Assembly (NCBI GenBank): GCA_022572465.1
Contig: JACZVV010000014.1
Coordinates: 1-42,401 of the forward strand
Length of the DNA stretch: 42,401 nucleotides
Reading direction: 5' to 3'
Origin: Chloroflexota bacterium
GTDB lineage: Bacteria > Chloroflexota > Dehalococcoidia > SHYB01
Shown: piece by piece, positions 7,435 through 24,731 of the stretch
Position numbering within the stretch: the first letter of the stretch is position 1
Layout: each line of letters starts with the position of its first letter
The notes under the pieces: model-generated
Database searches by the model: none
What the model was told of the DNA's origin: nothing
The model's input: only the letters and a program-made list of their open reading frames with translations
Program-made: the position numbers and the translations under genes

Positions 7435-8353
7435 CTATCTGGAAGGAAAGGCCGCAGTGGTTACCGGGGCCGGTGGCGGCATTGGGCGGGCCATCGCGCT
7501 GGCGCTGGCGGCGGAGGGCGCGAAGGTCGTGGTCAACGACCTCGGCGGCGGCCTCGACGGCTCGGGAGCGTCGAATGCTCCCGCCGACGCGGTGGTGGAG
7601 GAGATCGCCGAGGCCGGCGGGACGGCCGTGGCCAACTACGACGACGTGTCCCGGTTCGACGCCGCTGGGCGAATCATTCAAACGTCCGTCGACGCCTTCG
7701 GCGGCATCGACATCCTGGTGAACAACGCGGGAATCAGCCGCCCCGGTTGGTTCTACGAGATGGAAGAGGAGGACTTCGACGCCGTGGTGAACGTCCATCT
7801 CAAAGGCACGTTCAACTGCTCGCGCCACGCCTGCGGCCCCATGATGGAGCGACGATGGGGACGCATCGTCAACATCTCCTCGGGCGCGGGCATCATCGGC
7901 AGCGTGGAGCGGGTCAGCTACGCCGCGGCCAAGGCCGGCATCTTCGGCATGACCAACACCATGAGCCGCGACTTGGGCCCTTTCGGCATCACGGTCAACG
8001 CCGTCTGCCCCGGCCCCACCGACACTCGGATGCTCCAGAACTCGATCCGCCGGGCCAAGGAAGCGGAAGCGCGGGGCGACCCTTCGAGCGCGTTGGCCGG
8101 CTCCGGCCTGTTGCGGGTGCGGCCCTACGACCCCGAGGACCTGGCCCCCCTGGTCGCTCACCTGTGCACCGAAGCCGCAGGCAACGTCAACGGGCAGGTG
8201 TTCCACTCGTCGGGAAGCGAGTTCGGCTGGTTCCAACCGCTCCACGTTGCAAGGGCGATCTATACGAACGGGCGTTGGTCCCAGGACGAGCTGGCGCACA
8301 TCATGCCCCGCTCCCTCACTCGAGGCCTTCAAAATCCGGCGCCGCCGGCGTGA
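7427..8353 (+). CDS. Short-chain dehydrogenase/reductase (hydroxyacyl-CoA dehydrogenase-like)
   Basis: A classical SDR of 308 aa. The cofactor motif TGAGGGIG is at 13-20, followed by VVVNDLGGGLDG. An Asp-Leu-Gly-Gly in that place is common in the dehydrogenase domain of the multifunctional beta-oxidation enzymes and suggests NAD(H) use. NNAG is at 99-102 and the catalytic residues are S152, Y165 and K169 (YAAAK). The C-terminal 60 residues extend beyond the usual SDR core of about 250. Its start overlaps the end of the phosphotriesterase-like gene, and the MBL hydrolase follows 21 bases later, so the three form one operon. Oxidation of a hydroxyacyl-CoA or cyclic alcohol is a reasonable inference. 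Confidence 0.85.
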   Translation: MSSYLEGKAAVVTGAGGGIGRAIALALAAEGAKVVVNDLGGGLDGSGASNAPADAVVEEIAEAGGTAVANYDDVSRFDAAGRIIQTSVDAFGGIDILVNNAGISRPGWFYEMEEEDFDAVVNVHLKGTFNCSRHACGPMMERRWGRIVNISSGAGIIGSVERVSYAAAKAGIFGMTNTMSRDLGPFGITVNAVCPGPTDTRMLQNSIRRAKEAEARGDPSSALAGSGLLRVRPYDPEDLAPLVAHLCTEAAGNVNGQVFHSSGSEFGWFQPLHVARAIYTNGRWSQDELAHIMPRSLTRGLQNPAPPA

Positions 8354-8374
8354 CGCCAGGGAGAGCCTGCCCAG

Positions 8375-9214
8375 ATGCAGCTCGGCCGCTTCCAAATTGA
8401 TCTGCTGAACGACGGCGTCATGCGCTTCGATGGCGGCGCCTTCTTCGGCGTCGTGCCCAAGGCGCTGTGGGAGCGGCTGATGGCGCCCGACGAGCGCAAC
8501 CGCGTGACCGTCAACCTCAACTGTGCGCTCATCCGCGCCGGCGGCAAGACGATTCTGGTCGACACGGGAGTCGGGACGAAGCATCCAGAGAAGCGCCGGG
8601 GCATCTTCGCCATGGCCGCGGGCAACCTGCCCGATCAGCTCCGCCAGCGGGGGATCGAACCCGAGGAGATCGACTACGTGGTGCTCAGCCATCTGCACTT
8701 CGATCACGCCGGCGGGGCGACGCACTACACCGGCACGAAGGAGCTGCGGACGACGTTCCCTCGGGCCCAGCACCTGGTCCAGAGGGCCGACTGGGAGGAG
8801 GCGACCAGCCCCAACGAGCGCAACGCCGCGGGCTATTTCGAGGAGGACATCGAGCCGCTGCGGAGCAACCGGCAGCTCGAGCTGCTGGACGGCGATACCG
8901 AGGTCCTTCCCGGCGTGTGGTGCCGCCGAACCGGAGGCCACACCGCCGGCCATCAGATCGTCGTGCTGGAGGTCGACGGGCGGTCGGCGTGCTTCTTCGG
9001 CGACCTGATCCCCACGGTCCACCACCTGCCGCTGCCCTACTCCCAGGGCTACGATCTCTATCCCATCGAGCTGCTGGACCAGAAACGCCGGCTGCTGGAC
9101 CAGGCCGTCCGAGAGCAGTGGCTGGTCGTCTTTGACCACGAGACCGAGCACCCCGCGGGATACCTCGAACGGAGCGGCCAGGGGCGCCTCCAGCTGCGAC
9201 CCGTCGATCTGTGA
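8375..9214 (+). CDS. MBL-fold metallohydrolase (lactonase-like)
   Basis: A 279-aa metallo-beta-lactamase-fold protein. The binuclear zinc motif is HLHFDH at 106-111, with further ligands H189 (GGHTAGH), D210 (FFGDL) and H255 (FDHETEH). The overall layout, with Asp in the first half (VDTGVGTKHP) and no signal peptide, is closest to the AHL-lactonase/AttM-like group of cytosolic hydrolases. It is third in an operon with a phosphotriesterase-like protein and an SDR, which together fit opening and oxidation of a lactone or ester. Whether the substrate is a signal molecule or a carbon source is unknown. Confidence 0.87.
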   Translation: MQLGRFQIDLLNDGVMRFDGGAFFGVVPKALWERLMAPDERNRVTVNLNCALIRAGGKTILVDTGVGTKHPEKRRGIFAMAAGNLPDQLRQRGIEPEEIDYVVLSHLHFDHAGGATHYTGTKELRTTFPRAQHLVQRADWEEATSPNERNAAGYFEEDIEPLRSNRQLELLDGDTEVLPGVWCRRTGGHTAGHQIVVLEVDGRSACFFGDLIPTVHHLPLPYSQGYDLYPIELLDQKRRLLDQAVREQWLVVFDHETEHPAGYLERSGQGRLQLRPVDL

Positions 9215-16088: not shown

Positions 16089-16553
16089 GTGTACAAGGAC
16101 GTACCAGATTCGATTCATGTGGCCGTGACTCTGGCCTGCGGCTCTGCCAAGGCTCGGGACCTGCTGGTTACCCCTCGGGGATTGACCTCCTGGCTGGCCA
16201 CCGAGGCGGAGTTCACCGCCCAGGTGGGCTCGTCTATTCGGCTGAAGCTGGCGGGCGGCGACGAGATCGAAGGCAGCATCGAGGGCTTCGACGCTGCGTA
16301 TGGCATCGCCTACAGCTTCGTTCACGAAGGCGTCCGCCGGGCCTTCGGCACCACCGTCGCGCGATGGTCCTGGGAGGGGCTGAGCCCGGATTATGCGTTG
16401 GTCACGCTGACACACACCGGGCACGGCCAGGGCGACGCATGGCAGCGAGCGTATCAGTATCACCTGGAGCTGTGGTCCAGCTCGCTGCGCAACCTGGCGT
16501 CGGTGGTCAACGAAGGCCGGGACCTGCGCCGCCTGCCGGCGGGTTCGCCCTAG
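16089..16553 (+). CDS. SRPBCC (AHSA1-like) domain protein
   Basis: The GTG start at 16089 has CGGAGG four bases upstream; an earlier frame from 15966 has no such site. The product is 154 aa. The beta-helix layout (HVAVTLACGSAKARDLLVTP, then GLTSWLATEAEF, GSSIRLKLAGG, GSIEGFD) matches the SRPBCC/AHSA1 fold, in which a deep cavity binds hydrophobic ligands or partner proteins. The long C-terminal helix (HLELWSSSLRNLASVVNEG) closes the cavity. Ligand unknown. A TAGTAT at 16053-16058 may be the -10. Confidence 0.75.
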   Translation: MYKDVPDSIHVAVTLACGSAKARDLLVTPRGLTSWLATEAEFTAQVGSSIRLKLAGGDEIEGSIEGFDAAYGIAYSFVHEGVRRAFGTTVARWSWEGLSPDYALVTLTHTGHGQGDAWQRAYQYHLELWSSSLRNLASVVNEGRDLRRLPAGSP

Positions 16554-16568
16554 ACGCCGCGAGCCGCC

Positions 16569-17828
16569 CTATCCAACTGGTTGCAGCTCTTCCTTAGGCG
16601 TTTCAGCCAGGCTCACGGGCGTGTTCGCCTCGAACGGACCGACCAGTCCCAGCTCCTTGGCATATTCGCGGATCGCCGGCAAGACCTCTTGTCCCATGAG
16701 ACGGATGCAGGTCTTGGAGTTTTCGTGGTCGATGCGGCCGTCGTTGGCCCAGAGGCACAGGATGCCCACCCGGTTGTTGTCCAGGACGACCTTGAGCTGC
16801 TCGACGACTCGATCGGGGGTGCCCCAGATGAAGGTCCGCTCGAGCCTGCGCTGGTTCATCGAAGGAGGGCGGTTCATGGGTCTGCGCCCCGCCGCGATCT
16901 CGATGTACGATTTCCGGTTCGATGGCGAGCCATACCCCGTGGGCGTGCCCCAGATGGGATGGTTGAGGCCGGTGAACTCGCCCGCCATCCACATGAACTC
17001 CTGGGCGTTTCGCTCGGCGCGCTCCTCCGTCTCGGCCACGTGGCACTGGAGAAGCTGGCCGAACTGCTCCGGCCCCGCCTCGTAGCCGACGCGGCGGGCG
17101 GCCTCTCGGTAGATATCCTTGATCTTCTGGCTCAAGTCGAAGTTGGTGCCGAGGCCGACGTAGGGATAGCGGTGCTCGGCGGCCCAGACGACCGTCTCCT
17201 TGCTGGCGACGCCGGGGATCCAGATTCTTGGGTGGGGCTTTTGCAGCGGCGCCGTCCATGGGTTGACCACCCGGAACTGGAAGTGCTTGCCCTCCCAACG
17301 GAACGGGCCGGGAGTGGTCCACGTCTTGATGACCAGATCGTGGGCCTCGTCGAAGCGCTCGCGGTTGAAGACCGGGTTCTGGTTGGCCTGGATGTTCTCC
17401 ACGCCCCCGCCCCGGACGAACCCCGAGACCAGACGCCCTTTGGAGATCATGTCGATCATCGACAGCTCCTCCGACAGGTGGACTGGACTATCCACCACCG
17501 GCAGCGGGTTGCCATGCATCACGATCTTCACCCGCTTGGTGATGGCGGCGAGGATCGACCCGAAGACGTTGATTCGCGGCGACATGCAGAAGGGCGCCGT
17601 GTGGTGCTCGTTGAGCATGATGCCGTCGAATCCTACCTCGTCGACCAGCACGTACTCTTCCAGACGCTCGTTGTACAGGCGGCTCCCCGAGACGGGGTCG
17701 AAATACTTGTTGGAGAGCATCAGCGACGTTACGCGCTGCGTCTTGCCTGGGCCGATGGGCACCTCCAGCTTCGCATCCTCCTCCGGGTAGGTGGCCATCG
17801 GCTGCTCGGTAAAGTAGATCAGTTCCAC
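16569..17828 (-). CDS. LLM-class flavin-dependent monooxygenase (luciferase-like)
   Basis: A 419-aa bacterial-luciferase-type TIM-barrel protein (GTG start 17828, weak GAGGG site). Typical elements are the N-terminal FTEQPM, VGFDGIMLNEHHTAPFCMSPR (residues about 66-86, in two stretches), ITKRVKIVMHGNPLPVVDSP, LSMIDMISKGRLVSGFVRGG and WIPGVASKET. Members use reduced FMN and O2, or F420, to oxidise carbonyls, amines, sulfonates or hydrocarbons. Expansion of this family is known in SAR202 Chloroflexota. It lies 134 bases downstream of the alpha/beta hydrolase on the same strand, with a 24-bp palindrome between, so cotranscription with the selenoprotein locus is possible but not certain. Confidence 0.88.
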   Translation of the reverse strand: MELIYFTEQPMATYPEEDAKLEVPIGPGKTQRVTSLMLSNKYFDPVSGSRLYNERLEEYVLVDEVGFDGIMLNEHHTAPFCMSPRINVFGSILAAITKRVKIVMHGNPLPVVDSPVHLSEELSMIDMISKGRLVSGFVRGGGVENIQANQNPVFNRERFDEAHDLVIKTWTTPGPFRWEGKHFQFRVVNPWTAPLQKPHPRIWIPGVASKETVVWAAEHRYPYVGLGTNFDLSQKIKDIYREAARRVGYEAGPEQFGQLLQCHVAETEERAERNAQEFMWMAGEFTGLNHPIWGTPTGYGSPSNRKSYIEIAAGRRPMNRPPSMNQRRLERTFIWGTPDRVVEQLKVVLDNNRVGILCLWANDGRIDHENSKTCIRLMGQEVLPAIREYAKELGLVGPFEANTPVSLAETPKEELQPVG

Positions 17829-17843
17829 GGTTGCTAACCCTCA

Positions 17844-17867
17844 GTCGTCCCGATGCATCGGGACGAC
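17844..17867. repeat. Perfect 24-bp palindrome
   Basis: GTCGTCCCGATG (17844-17855) is followed directly by its exact reverse complement. The TCCCGAT core is shared with the palindrome at 9330-9365. On the plus strand TTCTT follows; on the minus strand, the direction of both neighbouring genes, no T-run follows. Confidence 0.75.
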
Positions 17868-17962
17868 TTCTTACTGACACCGGTAAAGGCGCTACGCTCC
17901 TTCATTCCGTCACGGGTGAAACGCTGAGGGCGGCGAACGGCGGTGATGATGCGTTCCTCCCG

Positions 17963-18760
17963 TTAAAGTGTCTTCGCAAAGGTGAGGACGAGCTTCGCAA
18001 GCTCGTTGGGCTTTTCGATATCGACGGCGTGGCCGCAAGCCTCCAGCACTTCGAGCCGGGAATTGGGCAGGGCGTCGGCGTAGAGCCCGCCGCACTCCAG
18101 GGGGACGATTCGGTCCTGCCGTCCCCAGACGACCAACGTCGGCACGGAGACGCCGCCGAGGAGCCCGGGCAGCGTGCGGTTGTACATGTAGGGTTTCCAG
18201 CCGATCCGAGAGGTCATCTCCCGGTCGGACTCCCAGTTCTCCAGGTATTCGAACTCGGGTTCGGCGCCGTAGACGGCCTCGAAATTCGCTTCGTCGTGGT
18301 AACTCGCACGGGCGTAGGTCTCGGTGTTGACCAGGAACTGATCGAAGATCTCGCCCTCCGCCGGCTGGATGCCCATCGGCCCGACGAGCACCAGCGACTT
18401 GAACGGCCGCTCGTCCATCGTGGCCATCTCCGCGGCGAGCCATCCGCCGAATCCCAGGCCCACCAGGGTCACCGAGTCCAGACCGAGAGTCCGCAGGAGG
18501 CGCCGGTGGACGATGGCCAGGTCTCGCACGTTGGCCAACCAGCTCCAGGCGGGACCATCGGAGTTGTGGTAGCCGGGGTGCGAAGGGACGTAGACGGTGA
18601 AGCGCTCGGCGAGGATGCTGTGGAAAGGCTGCCAGCCGGGGTATCCGTTATCGCGGGGCAGGACGACCAACGGGTCGCCTTGGCCGCCTTTCAGGAGATG
18701 CAGCTGGCCTCCGAAAAGCTCGACGCGCTCCTCAGTCCATGCTTCTGCGGCCAGTGTCAT
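17963..18760 (-). CDS. Alpha/beta hydrolase-fold protein lacking the nucleophile Ser
   Basis: A 265-aa single-domain alpha/beta hydrolase. The core strands (PLVVLPRDNGYPGW, FTVYVPSHPGYHNSDG) and helix packing match the MhpC/epoxide-hydrolase-like branch. The acid and base positions are filled: D216 in VWGRQDRIVP and H244 in EACGHAVD. The nucleophile elbow, normally G-x-S-x-G, reads G101-L-G103-F-G105, so the Ser/Asp/Cys nucleophile is a Gly encoded by GGA. The reading frame is intact and otherwise well conserved, so this is not decay in progress. It may be a non-hydrolytic member (lyase, decarboxylating or cofactor-free dioxygenase-like) or a binding protein. It follows the selenoprotein gene by 93 bases. 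Confidence 0.83.
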   Translation of the reverse strand: MTLAAEAWTEERVELFGGQLHLLKGGQGDPLVVLPRDNGYPGWQPFHSILAERFTVYVPSHPGYHNSDGPAWSWLANVRDLAIVHRRLLRTLGLDSVTLVGLGFGGWLAAEMATMDERPFKSLVLVGPMGIQPAEGEIFDQFLVNTETYARASYHDEANFEAVYGAEPEFEYLENWESDREMTSRIGWKPYMYNRTLPGLLGGVSVPTLVVWGRQDRIVPLECGGLYADALPNSRLEVLEACGHAVDIEKPNELAKLVLTFAKTL

Positions 18761-18853
18761 CGAGCCCTCCCGGCAGGCGGCCTACCGATCTCGCTGCTTC
18801 GGAGACGGCTCGAATCGCCGTCTTCGCTCTCGTCACCACATGGGGTTCCGGCG

Positions 18854-19420
18854 TTAGCCGCGGTTCTTGACCAGCGCCGCGACCACCTTGGGCGCGACCT
18901 CTTTGGCGACCTCGCGCACCTCATCGTCGCTCCACACCGCGGTGGGGATGTGGGGGTAGTCCACGGTGATGAAGTCGTAGTCCGGCACGCCGCTGAGCCG
19001 CCTCATCGAGTTGGCCGACCCCCTCATCGCTTCGTGGATGATCGCCACGCTGGGAACGCCGGACCACTCCATCTCGATTGCGTCGCGCATACTGCGCGCA
19101 CTGCAGGAGCCTCAACCGCCGAATCCAGTGATGGCGACGGTGACCTCCGACGTCAGCCGCTCCCAATCGGCCGGTTCCGGCGGCACCGAGACGCTGCTTT
19201 TGAGCACCTTCACCGCGCCGATGAGCTCGGCCTCTTTCTCCAGTTCCTCATACAGGGCGTCCATCAGCTTCTCGGTGATGCCCAGCCCATTGGCAATGAG
19301 ACCGATCACCGCGCCGTCCAAAGTCTCGCGCCGCTCGGGGAATTTCCGCTGGTCTTTTCGGTCCAGGGGCCCGCTTGTCGGGTCCAGGGTCACGATCCGG
19401 TCGCTTCCGTTCCGCGCCAT
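18854..19420 (-). CDS. UGSC-family selenoprotein, Sec at in-frame UGA
   Basis: Two adjacent in-frame open stretches (19420-19112 and 19111-18854) are joined by a single TGA at 19114-19112. Reading it as selenocysteine gives 188 aa with Sec103 in the context TGFGG-U-GSC-SARSMRDA. This U-G-S-C motif defines the UGSC family, first noted in marine metagenomes. The start ATG 19420 has AGGAGG eight bases upstream. Downstream of the UGA a hairpin (UGCGC/GCGCG, loop GCAGUAU with a GU) fits a bacterial SECIS. The U-x-x-C pair resembles redox-active CxxC sites, so a thiol/selenol redox or reductase role is inferred; the substrate is unknown. It follows the 19454 gene by 33 bases. Confidence 0.92.
19084..19100 (-). 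promoter_or_regulatory. Candidate bacterial SECIS hairpin
   Basis: On the minus-strand RNA, UGCGC (19100-19096) pairs with GCGCG (19088-19084) around a 7-base loop GCAGUAU. The helix begins 11 bases after the UGA and the loop carries the G-U expected of SelB-bound SECIS elements. The stem is short, so the fold should be tested with covariation. Confidence 0.55.
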
Positions 19421-19453
19421 ACGCTACCTCCTGTCTACGCTGATCGAGCCACG

Positions 19454-20440
19454 CTAGGCCAGGTCGATTGGCTTGGTGATGGCCCAAGCCAGGTGTGGGT
19501 GCAGGACCCACGTCTCGGACATGCCGTGGCCGCCGGCGGCCACGATGAGGATGCCATCGTCTTTGCCCAAGCGCACCGGCGACTCGCCCTTGCCCGACGG
19601 CGCCGTGAGCTTGGGGAACAGGTATTCGCGCATCTGCTTCTTGGACCAGCCGGCTTCGGCGAAGTAGCGCATGTGCTCCATGCCCATGACCAGGACCACG
19701 TTGGTGTCCTTCCCCAGCCAACGGTCGCCGGTGACGCCCATGGCGCGGACCGTCCGGGAGATGCTGTCCAGGACGCCGGCCGGGTCGCGGCTGGCCGAGT
19801 CCCGCGCCGAGGTCATGTACATCACGGAGTGGAGGGTGACGGTGCTTTGCTCGGGCGCGAACCCGCGCTCGACGTGCAGCGGCGTCCACGGGCTGTCCTC
19901 TTCGTTCTCCCCGAAACAGAACGAGTATCGGGCCGGGGTAGAGTACGTCGCCCGGTCGAGGAAGCCGGGAATGGCCCGACAGACGTTGCGCGCCACCAGC
20001 CGCACGGCACGGCCGATGGTGGCGTTGGCCCGCCAGCCGGGGCCGAAGCACCCGGCCTTGCAGTTGATATCCAACTCGTTGCGAATCGGACCGTTGACGA
20101 TGACTGCGTGGGCCGCGCCGGAAAGGGTGCCGGTGGTGCTATGGCAGTTCGCCTTCTCCTCCAGCAGCGCCCGAGCAGCCGCCGCGACTACCGGCATGTA
20201 CTCGACCTTGCAGCCCGCCATGACGGCGTTGACGGCCACATGTTCGGCGTTGACGGTCACCTCTCGCGTGGGAACGTGGCCCAGGACCTCGTCGGCCGAC
20301 AGGCCGGCATAGTCCAGAAAAGCCGCCACCTTTTCCGGTGTGGGCGGCACGATAGGCAGCCCGTCGGTCCAGCCCCGGTCGAGGTAGGACTCGACGGCCT
20401 CGTCGTAGGTGTCGAACGTGAGCTCTTGAGCCAGCGACAT
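19454..20440 (-). CDS. Cys-rich protein, probable partner of the UGSC selenoprotein
   Basis: The start ATG 20440 (MSLAQELTFDTYDEAV) has AGAGGAA upstream and gives 328 aa. I cannot name a characterised family. An N-terminal signature YLDRGWTDGLPIVPPTPEKV (19-38) precedes a set of cysteines that look structural or metal-binding: C77 (MAGCKVEY), C99 (ANCHSTTG), C127 and C131 (INCKAGCFGPG), C154 (NVCRAIPG) and C176. The C-terminal half holds a GMEHMRYFAEAGWSKKQ helix and a Gly-rich IVAAGGHGMSE. There is no membrane segment. It is first in the operon, directly upstream of the selenoprotein, and the tight spacing suggests a two-subunit enzyme, with this as the large subunit. Confidence 0.8.
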   Translation of the reverse strand: MSLAQELTFDTYDEAVESYLDRGWTDGLPIVPPTPEKVAAFLDYAGLSADEVLGHVPTREVTVNAEHVAVNAVMAGCKVEYMPVVAAAARALLEEKANCHSTTGTLSGAAHAVIVNGPIRNELDINCKAGCFGPGWRANATIGRAVRLVARNVCRAIPGFLDRATYSTPARYSFCFGENEEDSPWTPLHVERGFAPEQSTVTLHSVMYMTSARDSASRDPAGVLDSISRTVRAMGVTGDRWLGKDTNVVLVMGMEHMRYFAEAGWSKKQMREYLFPKLTAPSGKGESPVRLGKDDGILIVAAGGHGMSETWVLHPHLAWAITKPIDLA

Positions 20441-20469
20441 GGGTTCCTCTTTGCGTTCTCTTCGATGCG

Positions 20470-20498
20470 AGTCTATCAACGGTGTGAAACGAGGTCAA
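20470..20498 (-). promoter_or_regulatory. Promoter of the UGSC selenoprotein operon
   Basis: On the minus strand TTGACC (20498-20493), 17 bp, TAGACT (20475-20470), with TGA before the -10 giving an extended element. It predicts a leader of about 23 bases before ATG 20440. Confidence 0.6.
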
Positions 20499-20578
20499 GG
20501 CGTTGCGTCGCCCTGCATGCTAGCATAGGCGCCTGACCGTTGCGATGCGTTTCGCATTCGAAACAAGAGGAGGCTGAC

Positions 20579-21070
20579 ATGGCTGCCGACGCCGACGCGA
20601 AGCTGGTGGAGCTGGAACAGCGGCTCCAGGCACTGGAGGATCGGGAGAAGATTCGAGAGACCCTGGCCCGCTATTCTTTCACCGCCGACATGGGCCGGTC
20701 CCGGGAGTACGTCGAGAACTATACGGACGATGGAACGATCGACCTGGGCCCCTCGACGAAGTGGAGCGGGCATGAGGAGCTGACCGATTTCATCACCGAT
20801 CCGGCGGGCGGGCACAAAGCCATCGAGGGCCGGTGCATGCACACCTCGGTCAATACGTTCATCAGGGTCGAAGGCGACGCCGCCTGGGCCGAGGGCTACT
20901 CCGTGGTGTATACCAAGGAAGGCGAGGGCTACGGGGTCTACACCCTTGGCTACAACCATTGGACGTTCAAGAAAAAAGACGGGCGCTGGCTCCTGGCGTA
21001 CCGCCACCGGAGGCCCGTCGGCGGCGACGAGTGGGGCGGCGACGTGATCAAGGAGTTCCTGGACGGCTGA
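20579..21070 (+). CDS. SnoaL-like/NTF2-fold protein
   Basis: The start ATG 20579 has GAGGAGG six bases upstream; the product is 163 aa. A short coiled segment (KLVELEQRLQALEDREKI, about 8-25) leads into the cone-shaped SnoaL/NTF2 fold, typical in its LARYSFTADMGRSREYVENY, DGTIDLGPSTKWSG, RCMHTSVNTFI and the C-terminal WTFKKKDGRWLLAYRHRRPV. Proteins of this group act as cyclases, isomerases, hydratases or ring-hydroxylating beta subunits. Catalytic residues are not diagnostic. Its stop codon lies inside the first 48-bp-family repeat (GGCTGA). It is divergent from the selenoprotein operon. Confidence 0.8.
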   Translation: MAADADAKLVELEQRLQALEDREKIRETLARYSFTADMGRSREYVENYTDDGTIDLGPSTKWSGHEELTDFITDPAGGHKAIEGRCMHTSVNTFIRVEGDAAWAEGYSVVYTKEGEGYGVYTLGYNHWTFKKKDGRWLLAYRHRRPVGGDEWGGDVIKEFLDG

Positions 21071-21407: not shown

Positions 21408-22310
21408 GTGAGCGCCGCCGTGGCTTCATTGGCGCCGTGGTCCCGACTAAAGTCGGGATGGCGCAAGGCGGTCTTCTTCTCCCAGTCCATCAAGATCGAG
21501 CACAGTATCCTGGCGCTGCCCTTCGCCTATCTGACGCTTTTTTTGGTTGAGGATGGCTTGCCAAGAGCCTCGACCTTCGGCTGGATCACCCTGGCGATGG
21601 TCGGCGCCCGCACGGTGGGCATGGCCTCCAACCGCATCATCGACGCCGAAATCGACGCCAGGAATCCCAGGACGGCGGACCGCCATCTGCCGACCGGGCT
21701 GCTGCGCCACCGGGAAATGCTGCTCTTCACCGTGCTGGCGGCCGGACTGTTTCTCGGCGCGGTCTACCAGCTCAGCTCGTGGGCGCGGTACCTGTGGCCC
21801 GTGGCGCTGGCGGTCGTGGTCTTCTACCCCTACCTCAAGCGCTATACCTGGCTGTGTCACCTGGGCCTGGGCGTGGTCTACCTCCTGGTGCCGACCGGCA
21901 TCTGGATCGCGGTGGCCAACGAGCTCACGGTCGGCGCGGTGCTGCTCGGCATCGGGGCCGGGTTCTGGGTTGCCGGGTTTGACACCCTCTACGGCGTCCT
22001 CGACATCGACTTCGACCGGCGCGAGGGGATTCACTCCATTCCGGCCCGTTTCGGGCTGGCGACCAGCCTGCGGACGGCCCAGGCGTTTCACCTGATGACG
22101 GTCGGGTTCATCACCGCCGCGGGGATAGTGCTGGACGTGGGTTTCGTTTACTACCTGGGGACGGCGGCGTTTCTGGGGCTTATTATTTACGAGCACCGGC
22201 TGGTGTCGCCCCGGGACATATCCAGGGCCAACGTGGCGTTCTTCAACATGAACGGGATTATCAGCGTCATTTTTTTCCTTTTTGTCATGACCGACGTGCT
22301 GGTAAGGTGA
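21408..22310 (+). CDS. UbiA-family prenyltransferase (quinone biosynthesis)
   Basis: An integral membrane aromatic prenyltransferase with about eight hydrophobic helices. The first Asp-rich motif is NRIIDAEIDARNPRTADR and the second is DTLYGVLDIDFDRREGIHSIP; both bind the prenyl diphosphate through Mg. The N-terminal SIKIEHSILALPFAYL is the usual UbiA entry helix. The GTG at 21408 has GGAG eight bases upstream and gives 300 aa, but GTG 21420 is also possible, and the first 20 codons run across a TCCCGACT/AGTCGGGA dyad, so the start is uncertain. UbiX and UbiD follow immediately. In futalosine-pathway bacteria the corresponding genes are mqnP, mqnM and mqnL, so menaquinone synthesis is a reasonable inference. 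Confidence 0.9.
   Translation: MSAAVASLAPWSRLKSGWRKAVFFSQSIKIEHSILALPFAYLTLFLVEDGLPRASTFGWITLAMVGARTVGMASNRIIDAEIDARNPRTADRHLPTGLLRHREMLLFTVLAAGLFLGAVYQLSSWARYLWPVALAVVVFYPYLKRYTWLCHLGLGVVYLLVPTGIWIAVANELTVGAVLLGIGAGFWVAGFDTLYGVLDIDFDRREGIHSIPARFGLATSLRTAQAFHLMTVGFITAAGIVLDVGFVYYLGTAAFLGLIIYEHRLVSPRDISRANVAFFNMNGIISVIFFLFVMTDVLVR
21441..21458. repeat. TCCCGACT/AGTCGGGA dyad inside the ubiA 5' end
   Basis: Eight-base perfect arms with AA between them, coding for the SRLKSG stretch before the conserved UbiA domain. A left half of the same sequence (CTCCCGACTAAAG) appears at 31842-31854. Confidence 0.55.
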
Positions 22311-22320
22311 GGAGGCGGAG

Positions 22321-22953
22321 ATGAGCACCTATGTCATCGGCATCACGGGCGCCAGCGGCGCCCCCTACGCTCGGCGAGTGCTGCAAGCGCTGTTGGAGGA
22401 GGACCACCACGTCAAGCTCATCGTCTCGCCCGCCGGGGATCGCGTGCTGAATATCGAGCTGGGGCTGCGCTTCTCCGGCGCCCTGGCCGCCCGGCAGGAG
22501 CAGTGGGTCGAGTACCTGGGCGTCGATCGGGGCGGTCTCGAGCTTCTGGGGCATCGCGACTTCGCGGCCTCCATCGCCAGCGGGTCGTACGCGTTCGAGG
22601 CCATGGCCGTCGTGCCGTGCAGCATGGGCACGCTGGCGCGCATCGCCTCCGGGGTCTCCACCAATCTGATCGAGCGGGGCGCCGACGTGGCCCTCAAGGA
22701 GCGGCGCCCGCTGGTGCTGGTCCCGCGAGAGACGCCCCTCAACCGGATCCATCTGAAAAACATGCTGGCGGTCCACGAGGCCGGCGCCGAGGTGCTGCCG
22801 GCCATGCCTGGGTTCTATCACCATCCCAGGACGGTCGACGATCTGGTGGATACGGTGGCGGGTCGCATCCTCGATCGGCTCGGAGTGGAGAACGCGCTCT
22901 TCAAACGCTGGCAGGGCGACCCCCTGGCGGAGCTGGCGGGCCTGGAAGACTAG
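22321..22953 (+). CDS. ubiX: UbiX-family flavin prenyltransferase
   Basis: It makes prenylated FMN, the cofactor of UbiD decarboxylases, from FMN and dimethylallyl phosphate. The 210-aa protein begins MSTYVIGITGASGAPYARRV, where GITGASGAPYA (7-17) is the Rossmann-like FMN-binding loop. VVPCSMGTLARIASGVSTNLI (98-118, as two stretches) and LVLVPRETPLNRIHLKNM are the other conserved blocks. Start ATG 22321 has GGAGGCGG directly upstream. It is ten bases after ubiA and five before ubiD, so the product and its user are made together. Confidence 0.95.
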   Translation: MSTYVIGITGASGAPYARRVLQALLEEDHHVKLIVSPAGDRVLNIELGLRFSGALAARQEQWVEYLGVDRGGLELLGHRDFAASIASGSYAFEAMAVVPCSMGTLARIASGVSTNLIERGADVALKERRPLVLVPRETPLNRIHLKNMLAVHEAGAEVLPAMPGFYHHPRTVDDLVDTVAGRILDRLGVENALFKRWQGDPLAELAGLED

Positions 22954-22958
22954 GTCCG

Positions 22959-24731
22959 ATGCCCTTCTCCGACCTTCAGCATTTCATGGCCGTCCTGGAG
23001 CGGCGCGGGGAGCTGCGCCGGATTCGCGTGGAGGTCGACCCGGAGCTGGAGATTACCGAGATCGCCACGCGGGTGGTGAAAGATGAGGGCCCCGCGCTGC
23101 TGTTCGAGCGGGTGAAAGGCTCGGACTTTCCCCTGCTGATCAACGTTTTGGGGAGCCCGGGACGCATCGAGCTGGCCCTGGGCCGGCACCCGCAGGGCGT
23201 CGGCGAGGAGCTGATCGGCCTGCTCGAGCGGGCGAACCCGCCGTCGCTGAAGGCGCTTTGGCAGTCGCGAGGCACGGTCCGGAGGGTGCTGGCGGGCCGG
23301 TTGAAACCGGTCCGGCGCGGCATCAGCCAGCAGGTCGTCGAAGCTCCGGACCTCTCGACTCTGCCGGTCGTCAAGTGCTGGCCCCAGGACGCGGGTAAGT
23401 TCATCACCTTTCCACTGGTCATAACCCACCGCCCCGCCGACGGCCGCAGCAACATGGGCGTGTACCGGATGCAGCTCCATGACAATGTCTCGACGGGGAT
23501 GCATTGGCAGCTTCAAAAAGGCGGCGGATTCCACTATCAGGAGGCCGAGGCCCAGGGCCGTCCGCTGGAGGTGGCGGCCTGTTTGGGCGGCGATCCTGTG
23601 CTCTTGCTGGCGGCGGTGCTGCCGCTGCCCGAGAGCCTGGAGGAGCTGGTCTTCGCCGGCATTCTCCGGGGCAAGCCGACGCCGATGGTGCGAGCCAAGT
23701 CGCTGGACATGCGCGTACCGGCCAACGCCGAGTTCGTGCTGGAGGGAAGGGTCGAGCCGGGCGAGCGGTTGCCCGAAGGCCCCTTCGGCGATCACCTGGG
23801 CCACTACTCGGACGAGTCGCCGTTTCCGGTGTTCCGCATCCAGACGGTCACCCGGCGGAAGCATCCCGTTTACCTGGCGGCGGTGGTTGGCAAACCGCCC
23901 CAGGAGGACCGGTACCTGGGCGACGCGGCGCAGCAGTTCCTCAATCCGTTCGTCAAGCTGATCCAGCCCGAGGTCGAGGACATGTGGGCCTACTACGAGG
24001 CCGGGTTCCATAACCTGGTGGTCGTCTCCGTTCGAAGCCGGTACGCCAAGGAGCCGATGAAGACGGCTCTGGGCCTGTTCGGCAACGGCCAGCTCTCGCT
24101 GACCAAGTGCATCGTGCTGGTGGGCTCGGGCGTCGACCCCCGCGACTTCGACGCAGTGCTGGGGGAGATCCAACGCCACTACCGCTCCGAGTCCGATTTC
24201 TTGCTGCTCCCCAAGGTGCCGCTGGACACGTTGGACTTCACCAGCTTCCAGATGCACCTCGGGAGCAAGATGGCCATCGACGCCACGCCGAAGCAGGACC
24301 GTCCGCCGGACAGGCCGGACCGCCCGATGACCGCGGACCTATCGCGTCTCGCGCCGGAGGCCAAGGGGTGGCGTTTGGTCCGCGAGACGCTGCTGGCGGT
24401 GACCGTCGCCACCGAAGACGCCCGCAGTGTGTTGACGCGGCTGTGCCGGGACGACGGTCTGGCCGGCGTCAAGCTGATAGCGGCCGTCAGTCCCGACGTG
24501 GACCTCGACGACCGCACCAGCTTGCTGTGGGGCATCTTCACGCGGTTCGACCCGGCCCGGGACGTTATCTTCCGCGAGATGCGCATGGAGGGCGCCGCGC
24601 CGGTCTATCGGGGACCGTTGGGCATCGACGCGACGTTCAAGCCGGGCTACCCCGCGACGCTGGAGATGGATGCGGAGACGGTAGCCAAGGTCGACCGGCG
24701 ATGGAATGATTACTGGCAAGGAGAGGGTTGA
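22959..24731 (+). CDS. UbiD-family decarboxylase (menaquinone-type)
   Basis: A prFMN-dependent aromatic acid decarboxylase of 590 aa. It starts at ATG 22959 (MPFSDLQHFMAVLERRG); an open frame reaching back through ubiX is antisense-like noise and is rejected. Conserved elements are EIATRVVKDEGPALLFERV near 34-52, NMGVYRMQLHD with R170, and LPEGPFGDHLGHYSDE with E273, the region of the catalytic Arg-Glu-Glu network. QDRYLGDAA and the Lys-Met-containing HLGSKMAIDATPKQ are also typical. The C-terminal extension of about 130 residues beyond E. coli UbiD length resembles the MqnL/menaquinone-type decarboxylases. With UbiA and UbiX it likely carries out the late decarboxylation in quinone synthesis. 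Confidence 0.9.
   Translation: MPFSDLQHFMAVLERRGELRRIRVEVDPELEITEIATRVVKDEGPALLFERVKGSDFPLLINVLGSPGRIELALGRHPQGVGEELIGLLERANPPSLKALWQSRGTVRRVLAGRLKPVRRGISQQVVEAPDLSTLPVVKCWPQDAGKFITFPLVITHRPADGRSNMGVYRMQLHDNVSTGMHWQLQKGGGFHYQEAEAQGRPLEVAACLGGDPVLLLAAVLPLPESLEELVFAGILRGKPTPMVRAKSLDMRVPANAEFVLEGRVEPGERLPEGPFGDHLGHYSDESPFPVFRIQTVTRRKHPVYLAAVVGKPPQEDRYLGDAAQQFLNPFVKLIQPEVEDMWAYYEAGFHNLVVVSVRSRYAKEPMKTALGLFGNGQLSLTKCIVLVGSGVDPRDFDAVLGEIQRHYRSESDFLLLPKVPLDTLDFTSFQMHLGSKMAIDATPKQDRPPDRPDRPMTADLSRLAPEAKGWRLVRETLLAVTVATEDARSVLTRLCRDDGLAGVKLIAAVSPDVDLDDRTSLLWGIFTRFDPARDVIFREMRMEGAAPVYRGPLGIDATFKPGYPATLEMDAETVAKVDRRWNDYWQGEG

Follow-up and report, generated by a model that had tools for sequence, protein, structure and literature searches.

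Here, we present a computational analysis of a UGSC-family gene and of the gene directly upstream from it, both located in a 42,401-nt stretch of Chloroflexota DNA (contig JACZVV010000014.1; referred to as the window). Our data support that an in-frame UGA codon in the UGSC gene is read as selenocysteine (Sec), that UGSC genes are regularly paired with or fused to a gene for the same partner protein, and that the UGSC protein is related to the Sec-bearing domain of GrdB/PrdB. Based on these findings, we consider it probable that the Sec-containing UGSC protein is the catalytic subunit of a two-protein enzyme, formed with the partner, that performs small-molecule chemistry similar to that of D-proline reductase. 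The 188-aa protein is a further copy of a known selenoprotein family, and UGSC as such is not new; in an ocean survey, UGSC was among the commonest selenoprotein families and was the most frequent family in the nonmarine samples of that survey (PMC2398784). What is new beyond the known family is the partner, the relationship to GrdB/PrdB, a correction of the fold, and an eight-fold expansion in the source genome, by which the role of UGSC becomes testable. The preliminary description of this locus arrived at the selenoprotein interpretation, which is supported here; it overlooked that the neighboring gene belongs to the system, that UGSC is present eight times in the genome, and that GrdB/PrdB are relatives of the catalytic domain. 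The features of the locus are listed in Table 1.

Table 1. Features of the UGSC locus in the window, in the direction of transcription
Feature	Coordinates	Strand	Description
Partner protein	19454..20440	−	328 aa; separated from the downstream UGSC gene by 33 nt; without a family in Pfam or NCBIfam
Shine-Dalgarno-like AGGAGG of the UGSC gene	19427..19432	−	Assigned from sequence; 6 nt upstream of ATG 19420
UGSC-family selenoprotein CDS	18854..19420	−	188 aa; Sec at residue 103 (UGSC motif); stop codon TAA; Pfam PF24696
UGA codon read as Sec (U103)	19112..19114	−	UGA in 8/8 paralogues of the source genome and in 80/82 matches elsewhere; Cys (TGC) in 6 actinobacterial homologues
bSECIS-like hairpin	19083..19099	−	7-column stem; loop G-U-A at 19092-19090; covariation on 77 sequences and fit to the bSECIS model
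Alpha/beta hydrolase	17963..18760	−	Next gene downstream of UGSC; PF00561, E = 1e-20; possible operon member
Luciferase-like (LLM) flavin monooxygenase	16569..17828	−	PF00296, E = 2.6e-37; possible operon member

Translation with UGA as Sec confirmed the previously described minus-strand frame, which starts at the ATG, is interrupted by one UGA, and continues in phase to the end of the gene; apart from this UGA, the frame is fully open, and U103 lies in the described GFGG-U-GSC context. The U-G-S-C motif (residues 103-106) sits at a conserved place in an alignment of 75 sequences. The preliminary description had also assigned the protein to the described UGSC family. Consistently, the joined 188-aa sequence matches PF24696 over nearly the full length of the model (E = 3.1e-42; model positions 3-171 of 172) with 145 bits, i.e., above the gathering cut-off of 25 bits. 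In contrast, it scored 95.3 bits against the NCBIfam equivalog NF041046, for which the cut-off is 125 bits. The protein is, therefore, a UGSC member at the Pfam level that is left unnamed by the NCBI equivalog rule; with the described family (PF24696; NF041046; PMC2398784), it shares the UGSC motif, the length, the place of Sec, and a downstream bacterial SECIS (bSECIS). The expectation that standard gene calling would report two small hypothetical genes here held for the first half, which corresponds to a 102-aa ORF, but not for the second half, which has no in-frame ORF of at least 80 aa.

The hairpin with a GU-bearing loop noted previously is real, but its stem starts at ∼19099/19098, i.e., 12-13 nt past the UGA and not 11; it has 6-7 bp, and the 24-nt core has a minimum free energy (MFE) of −12.8 kcal/mol. 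A published bSECIS model (PMC13188914) specifies a loop of 3-9 nt, a stem of at least 4 bp, a distance of 16-37 nt from the UGA, an MFE of at most −7.5, and a G in the first two loop positions that is often followed by G/U. With its 3-nt GUA loop located 19 nt from the UGA, the hairpin falls within all of these constraints. Rfam gave no match in the window at the gathering threshold, and the folding energy of the single hairpin is ordinary for its composition (z = −0.39). Accordingly, the energy of this lone hairpin could not establish it; rather, covariation does. Among 77 distinct sequences, 93.5% of the cells in stem columns 16-22 and 26-32 after the UGA are paired compared with only 16-57% in slid registers, two-sided changes in the stem occurred 58 times versus 17 times in shuffles, and the covariation score was 0.347 versus 0.112. 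Both positions of the column pair 21/27 are third codon positions; 48 of these sequences have C-G there and the other 29 have G-C, with zero exceptions, which is hard to explain by selection at the protein level. The loop G-U is invariant in the same set. At the codon of this G-U (codon 8, with UGA as codon 1), 70 of 86 Sec genes have AGT, while six Cys forms have ACC, TCG, TCG, TCC, GCG, and ACA and lack the GU loop. In the Sec genes, which are otherwise GC-rich, Ser at this codon is nearly always encoded by AGT and never by AGC; this is an RNA-level signature that can be used to separate Sec from Cys forms.

The source genome (2.9 Mb in 160 contigs; 83% complete) carries selA, selB, and selD as well as the gene for tRNA-Sec (anticodon TCA in the gene and UCA in the tRNA). 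UGSC genes number eight in this genome, and every one of them has a single TGA, always in the same aligned column; UGSC was found in 32 of 301 sampled genomes of the phylum. Homologous loci in other bacterial genomes were gathered via the partner gene, a query that does not choose between Sec and Cys forms; UGSC was present in 68 of the 80 loci obtained. In the Sec column of the 82 UGSC matches from other genomes, TGA occurred 80 times, TGC once, and CAG once, with one of the TGA rows being a spurious second match to the domain in L089, and the alignment runs across the UGA among the paralogues of the source genome as well as in the other genomes. The CAG derives from a degenerate fused copy. 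This UGSC-partner fusion (L081:5075-6709) has Gln in place of Sec (IALCD-Q-GVTQNC), lacks a UGA, is located beside two Sec copies, and is possibly a non-catalytic paralogue. SelA is encoded in 20 of the 21 sampled genomes from the partner route, the exception being a 1.3-Mb MAG. In the order of Nocardioides halotolerans, six UGSC genes score above the Pfam cut-off and have TGC at the Sec place; SelA was not found in N. halotolerans, which has the Cys form.

There are ten copies of the partner gene in the source genome. Of the eight UGSC genes, six have such a copy next to them and one is fused to a partner (7/8 in total), while the remaining one is without a partner beside it. In other genomes, we found the order partner-UGSC 44 times, UGSC-partner 23 times, and a UGSC-partner fusion six times; all six Cys-UGSC genes also adjoin a partner gene. 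The evolutionary distances of UGSC and partner correlate over 70 pairs (0.79, compared with a permutation maximum of 0.12), indicating that the two genes travel together, with part of this correlation being shared species history. A natural fusion (L057:11312-12928) gave a confident AF2 model (pLDDT 93.4; pTM 0.92), which, as judged from the pTM only, suggests that the UGSC and partner domains have a defined arrangement. In the numbering of this fusion, the invariant residues of the partner are D219-G-L-P, N264, R337, N345, E371, and W378. A fusion of UGSC with a domain called 'Unknown_1' was reported in 2008 (PMC2398784), and 'Unknown_1' may or may not be the partner domain; the systematic two-gene pairing of UGSC and partner is an addition beyond the literature examined. 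A sequence search of the PDB gave no relative of the partner, Pfam gave no meaningful match for 65 partner homologues, including none to the pyruvoyl proproteins PrdA/GrdE, and among the 50 matches shown for a Foldseek search with the fusion model, nothing reached E ≤ 0.001 and nothing could be assigned to the partner part. We also asked whether the partner could carry a pyruvoyl site, but such a mechanism is not supported: its one highly conserved Cys is replaced by Ala or Gly in three fused forms, and no relation to PrdA/GrdE was detectable. Some partner homologues have no UGSC gene nearby, and the partner may also work alone. For instance, the poribacterial partners L068 and L112 (about 7920-8920), as well as L072, L079, and L093, are in loci without a UGSC gene and, from a reading of the translations, are upstream of CBS-domain-like proteins and a 2-oxoacid oxidoreductase-like gene.

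The AF2 model of the window UGSC protein (mean pLDDT 91.4) alternates between strands and helices, and Sec sits where helix 104-119 begins, right after strand 95-101. Its best structural matches in the PDB are flavodoxin-like domains with TM scores below 0.5, and thioredoxin (Trx) is absent among the 50 best PDB matches shown. In the literature, UGSC is listed as a Trx-like-fold/thiol-oxidoreductase selenoprotein; by contrast, the fold is predicted to be flavodoxin-like, and the assumed thioredoxin-like fold is not supported by the model. A PDB sequence search with UGSC gave only weak partial matches, mostly to helical segments. Using hhalign, UGSC aligned with profile A7, which represents the C-terminal, Sec-bearing part of GrdB/PrdB-type proteins, with E = 3.8e-6 and a probability of 87%, placing Sec on Sec and UxxC on UxxC; the controls gave 0.3% (column-reversed) and 0.1% (partner profile). 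HMM searches were reciprocal, with E values down to 6.6e-7 for the GrdB profile against UGSC and of 2.9e-6 for the UGSC profile against GrdB. Among 8784 segments, 8/8 matches of the GrdB profile at E ≤ 0.001 were UGSC, and there were none in the reversed database. Based on these profile alignments, UGSC and the C-terminal domain of GrdB/PrdB that bears Sec are homologous, a link that is an addition beyond the literature examined and ties UGSC to enzymes of studied mechanism in the breakdown of D-proline and glycine. UGSC and PrdB/GrdB (PF07355) have in common the Sec-aligned UxxC after a hydrophobic strand, an E-x2-G-(I/V)-P segment past the helix, and a second subunit, which for UGSC would be the partner. 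Unlike PrdB/GrdB, UGSC lacks the upstream GRDB region, and no match to PF07355 was listed for any of 75 UGSC proteins, for which the best non-UGSC families matched 1-3 members. Similarly, the partner differs from the pyruvoyl proproteins of the PrdB/GrdB systems, to which it shows no relation, and a partner homologue was not found in the GRDB-type loci fetched.

The genes for the partner, UGSC, the alpha/beta hydrolase, and the LLM monooxygenase are in a row on one strand, and there is no minus-strand terminator-like site in 16300-20800, making it plausible from gene order that the four genes form one operon. Neighbors of the UGSC genes in the source genome encode LLM flavin monooxygenases, amidohydrolases, an aldo/keto reductase, a sugar-isomerase-like TIM barrel protein, ABC transporters, and a CoA-transferase; in other genomes, they encode MFS and TctC transport proteins, amidohydrolases, gluconolactonases, and AsnC regulators. 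No single third gene was constant among the neighbors of UGSC and partner, and these varied catabolic neighbors fit a module that is reused for several substrates. LLM genes (16569-17828 in the window, L029:426-1430, and L031:4569-6800) are located near three of the eight UGSC copies of the source genome. Divergent from the UGSC cluster, the plus strand of the window at 21429-24731 encodes a UbiA prenyltransferase, a UbiX-like flavoprotein, and a UbiD decarboxylase in a row.

In the mechanism proposed for D-proline reductase (PMC3091704), PrdA holds the substrate through its pyruvoyl group, and PrdB attacks the alpha carbon with its Sec, upon which the C-N bond is broken; the selenoether is then resolved by a PrdB Cys, and the selenide-sulfide is finally reduced again. 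Because UGSC combines a PrdB-like catalytic domain with a constant second protein that is not PrdA/GrdE-like, we infer that PrdB-like Sec chemistry on a differently held substrate is most likely. According to this model, SelB and tRNA-Sec would decode the UGA as Sec, aided by the hairpin directly downstream, and the UGSC protein and the protein encoded upstream would be the Sec-bearing catalytic subunit and the other subunit, respectively, of a complex in the cell. By analogy to D-proline reductase (PMC3091704), a small substrate would most likely be bound and activated by the partner. It would then be attacked by the Sec selenolate, located at the helix N-terminus, so that a bond is broken reductively, Cys106 of the UxxC motif would resolve the product as a selenide-sulfide, and an external thiol reductant would regenerate the enzyme. 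The repeated occurrence of UGSC probably reflects different substrates that the copies act on within catabolic gene clusters.

We considered three alternatives to this model. If the UGA were a true stop codon, the locus would be a pseudogene or two separate small ORFs, and a gene caller without Sec support would indeed end the protein at 102 aa. However, in-frame homology carries on past the UGA, the codon recurs at the same site in the paralogues and in nearly all matches elsewhere, the SECIS covaries, and the genome has the full Sec machinery; this reading is, therefore, refuted computationally, and we give it next to no credence. Alternatively, UGSC could be a general thiol-redox protein of the thioredoxin or peroxiredoxin type that reduces disulfides or peroxides with the partner as its client or reductant. 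The UxxC motif and the placement of UGSC in the literature agree with this idea; however, the high-confidence AF2 model is flavodoxin-like, the 50 best PDB matches shown include no thioredoxin, the homology goes to GrdB/PrdB, and eight diverged copies, of which seven are tied to a partner and have catabolic or transport neighbors, are unlike a housekeeping redox protein, making this function unlikely.

Another possibility, to which we assign slightly less weight than to the thiol-redox function, is that the bonds cleaved by the pair are carbon-sulfur, carbon-halogen, or similar ones; Sec would attack sulfur or halide instead of a C-N bond, in substrates that the nearby flavin monooxygenases and hydrolases have prepared. 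The LLM genes near the window copy and two other copies in the source genome argue for this, as does the weak resemblance of the window LLM protein to alkanesulfonate and dimethylsulfone monooxygenases. However, this similarity is far below the NCBI cut-offs, and LLM genes are rare among the immediate neighbors in other genomes (2/93). Returning to the D-proline-reductase-like enzyme, we consider it nearly as likely as not that UGSC and the partner represent a widespread class of Sec-dependent two-component reductases/lyases, in which the D-proline/glycine-reductase catalytic domain has been combined anew with a different substrate-binding protein and has multiplied into many copies for different substrates, largely in uncultured bacteria. 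With a constant partner, the homology to GrdB/PrdB, a corrected fold, and a cultured organism that has the Cys form (Nocardioides halotolerans DSM 19273), 'function unknown' becomes a defined experiment.

The source genome appears to encode further selenoproteins. The selD gene (G000:C128:11186-12112; L022) has an in-frame TGA near its start in the context CGG-U-GSK, and SelD thus appears to be a selenoprotein itself. In G000:C130:17130-17486 (L123:1345-2100), a GRDB-type half-length protein reads '...VVVLTPV' up to a TGA and then in frame '-U-PMCTRVV...', apparently a further PrdB/GrdB-like selenoprotein. Such half-length proteins of the phylum have a U-x-x-C Sec motif and, as in this example from the same genome, the same C-terminal domain as UGSC; unlike UGSC, they belong to PF07355.
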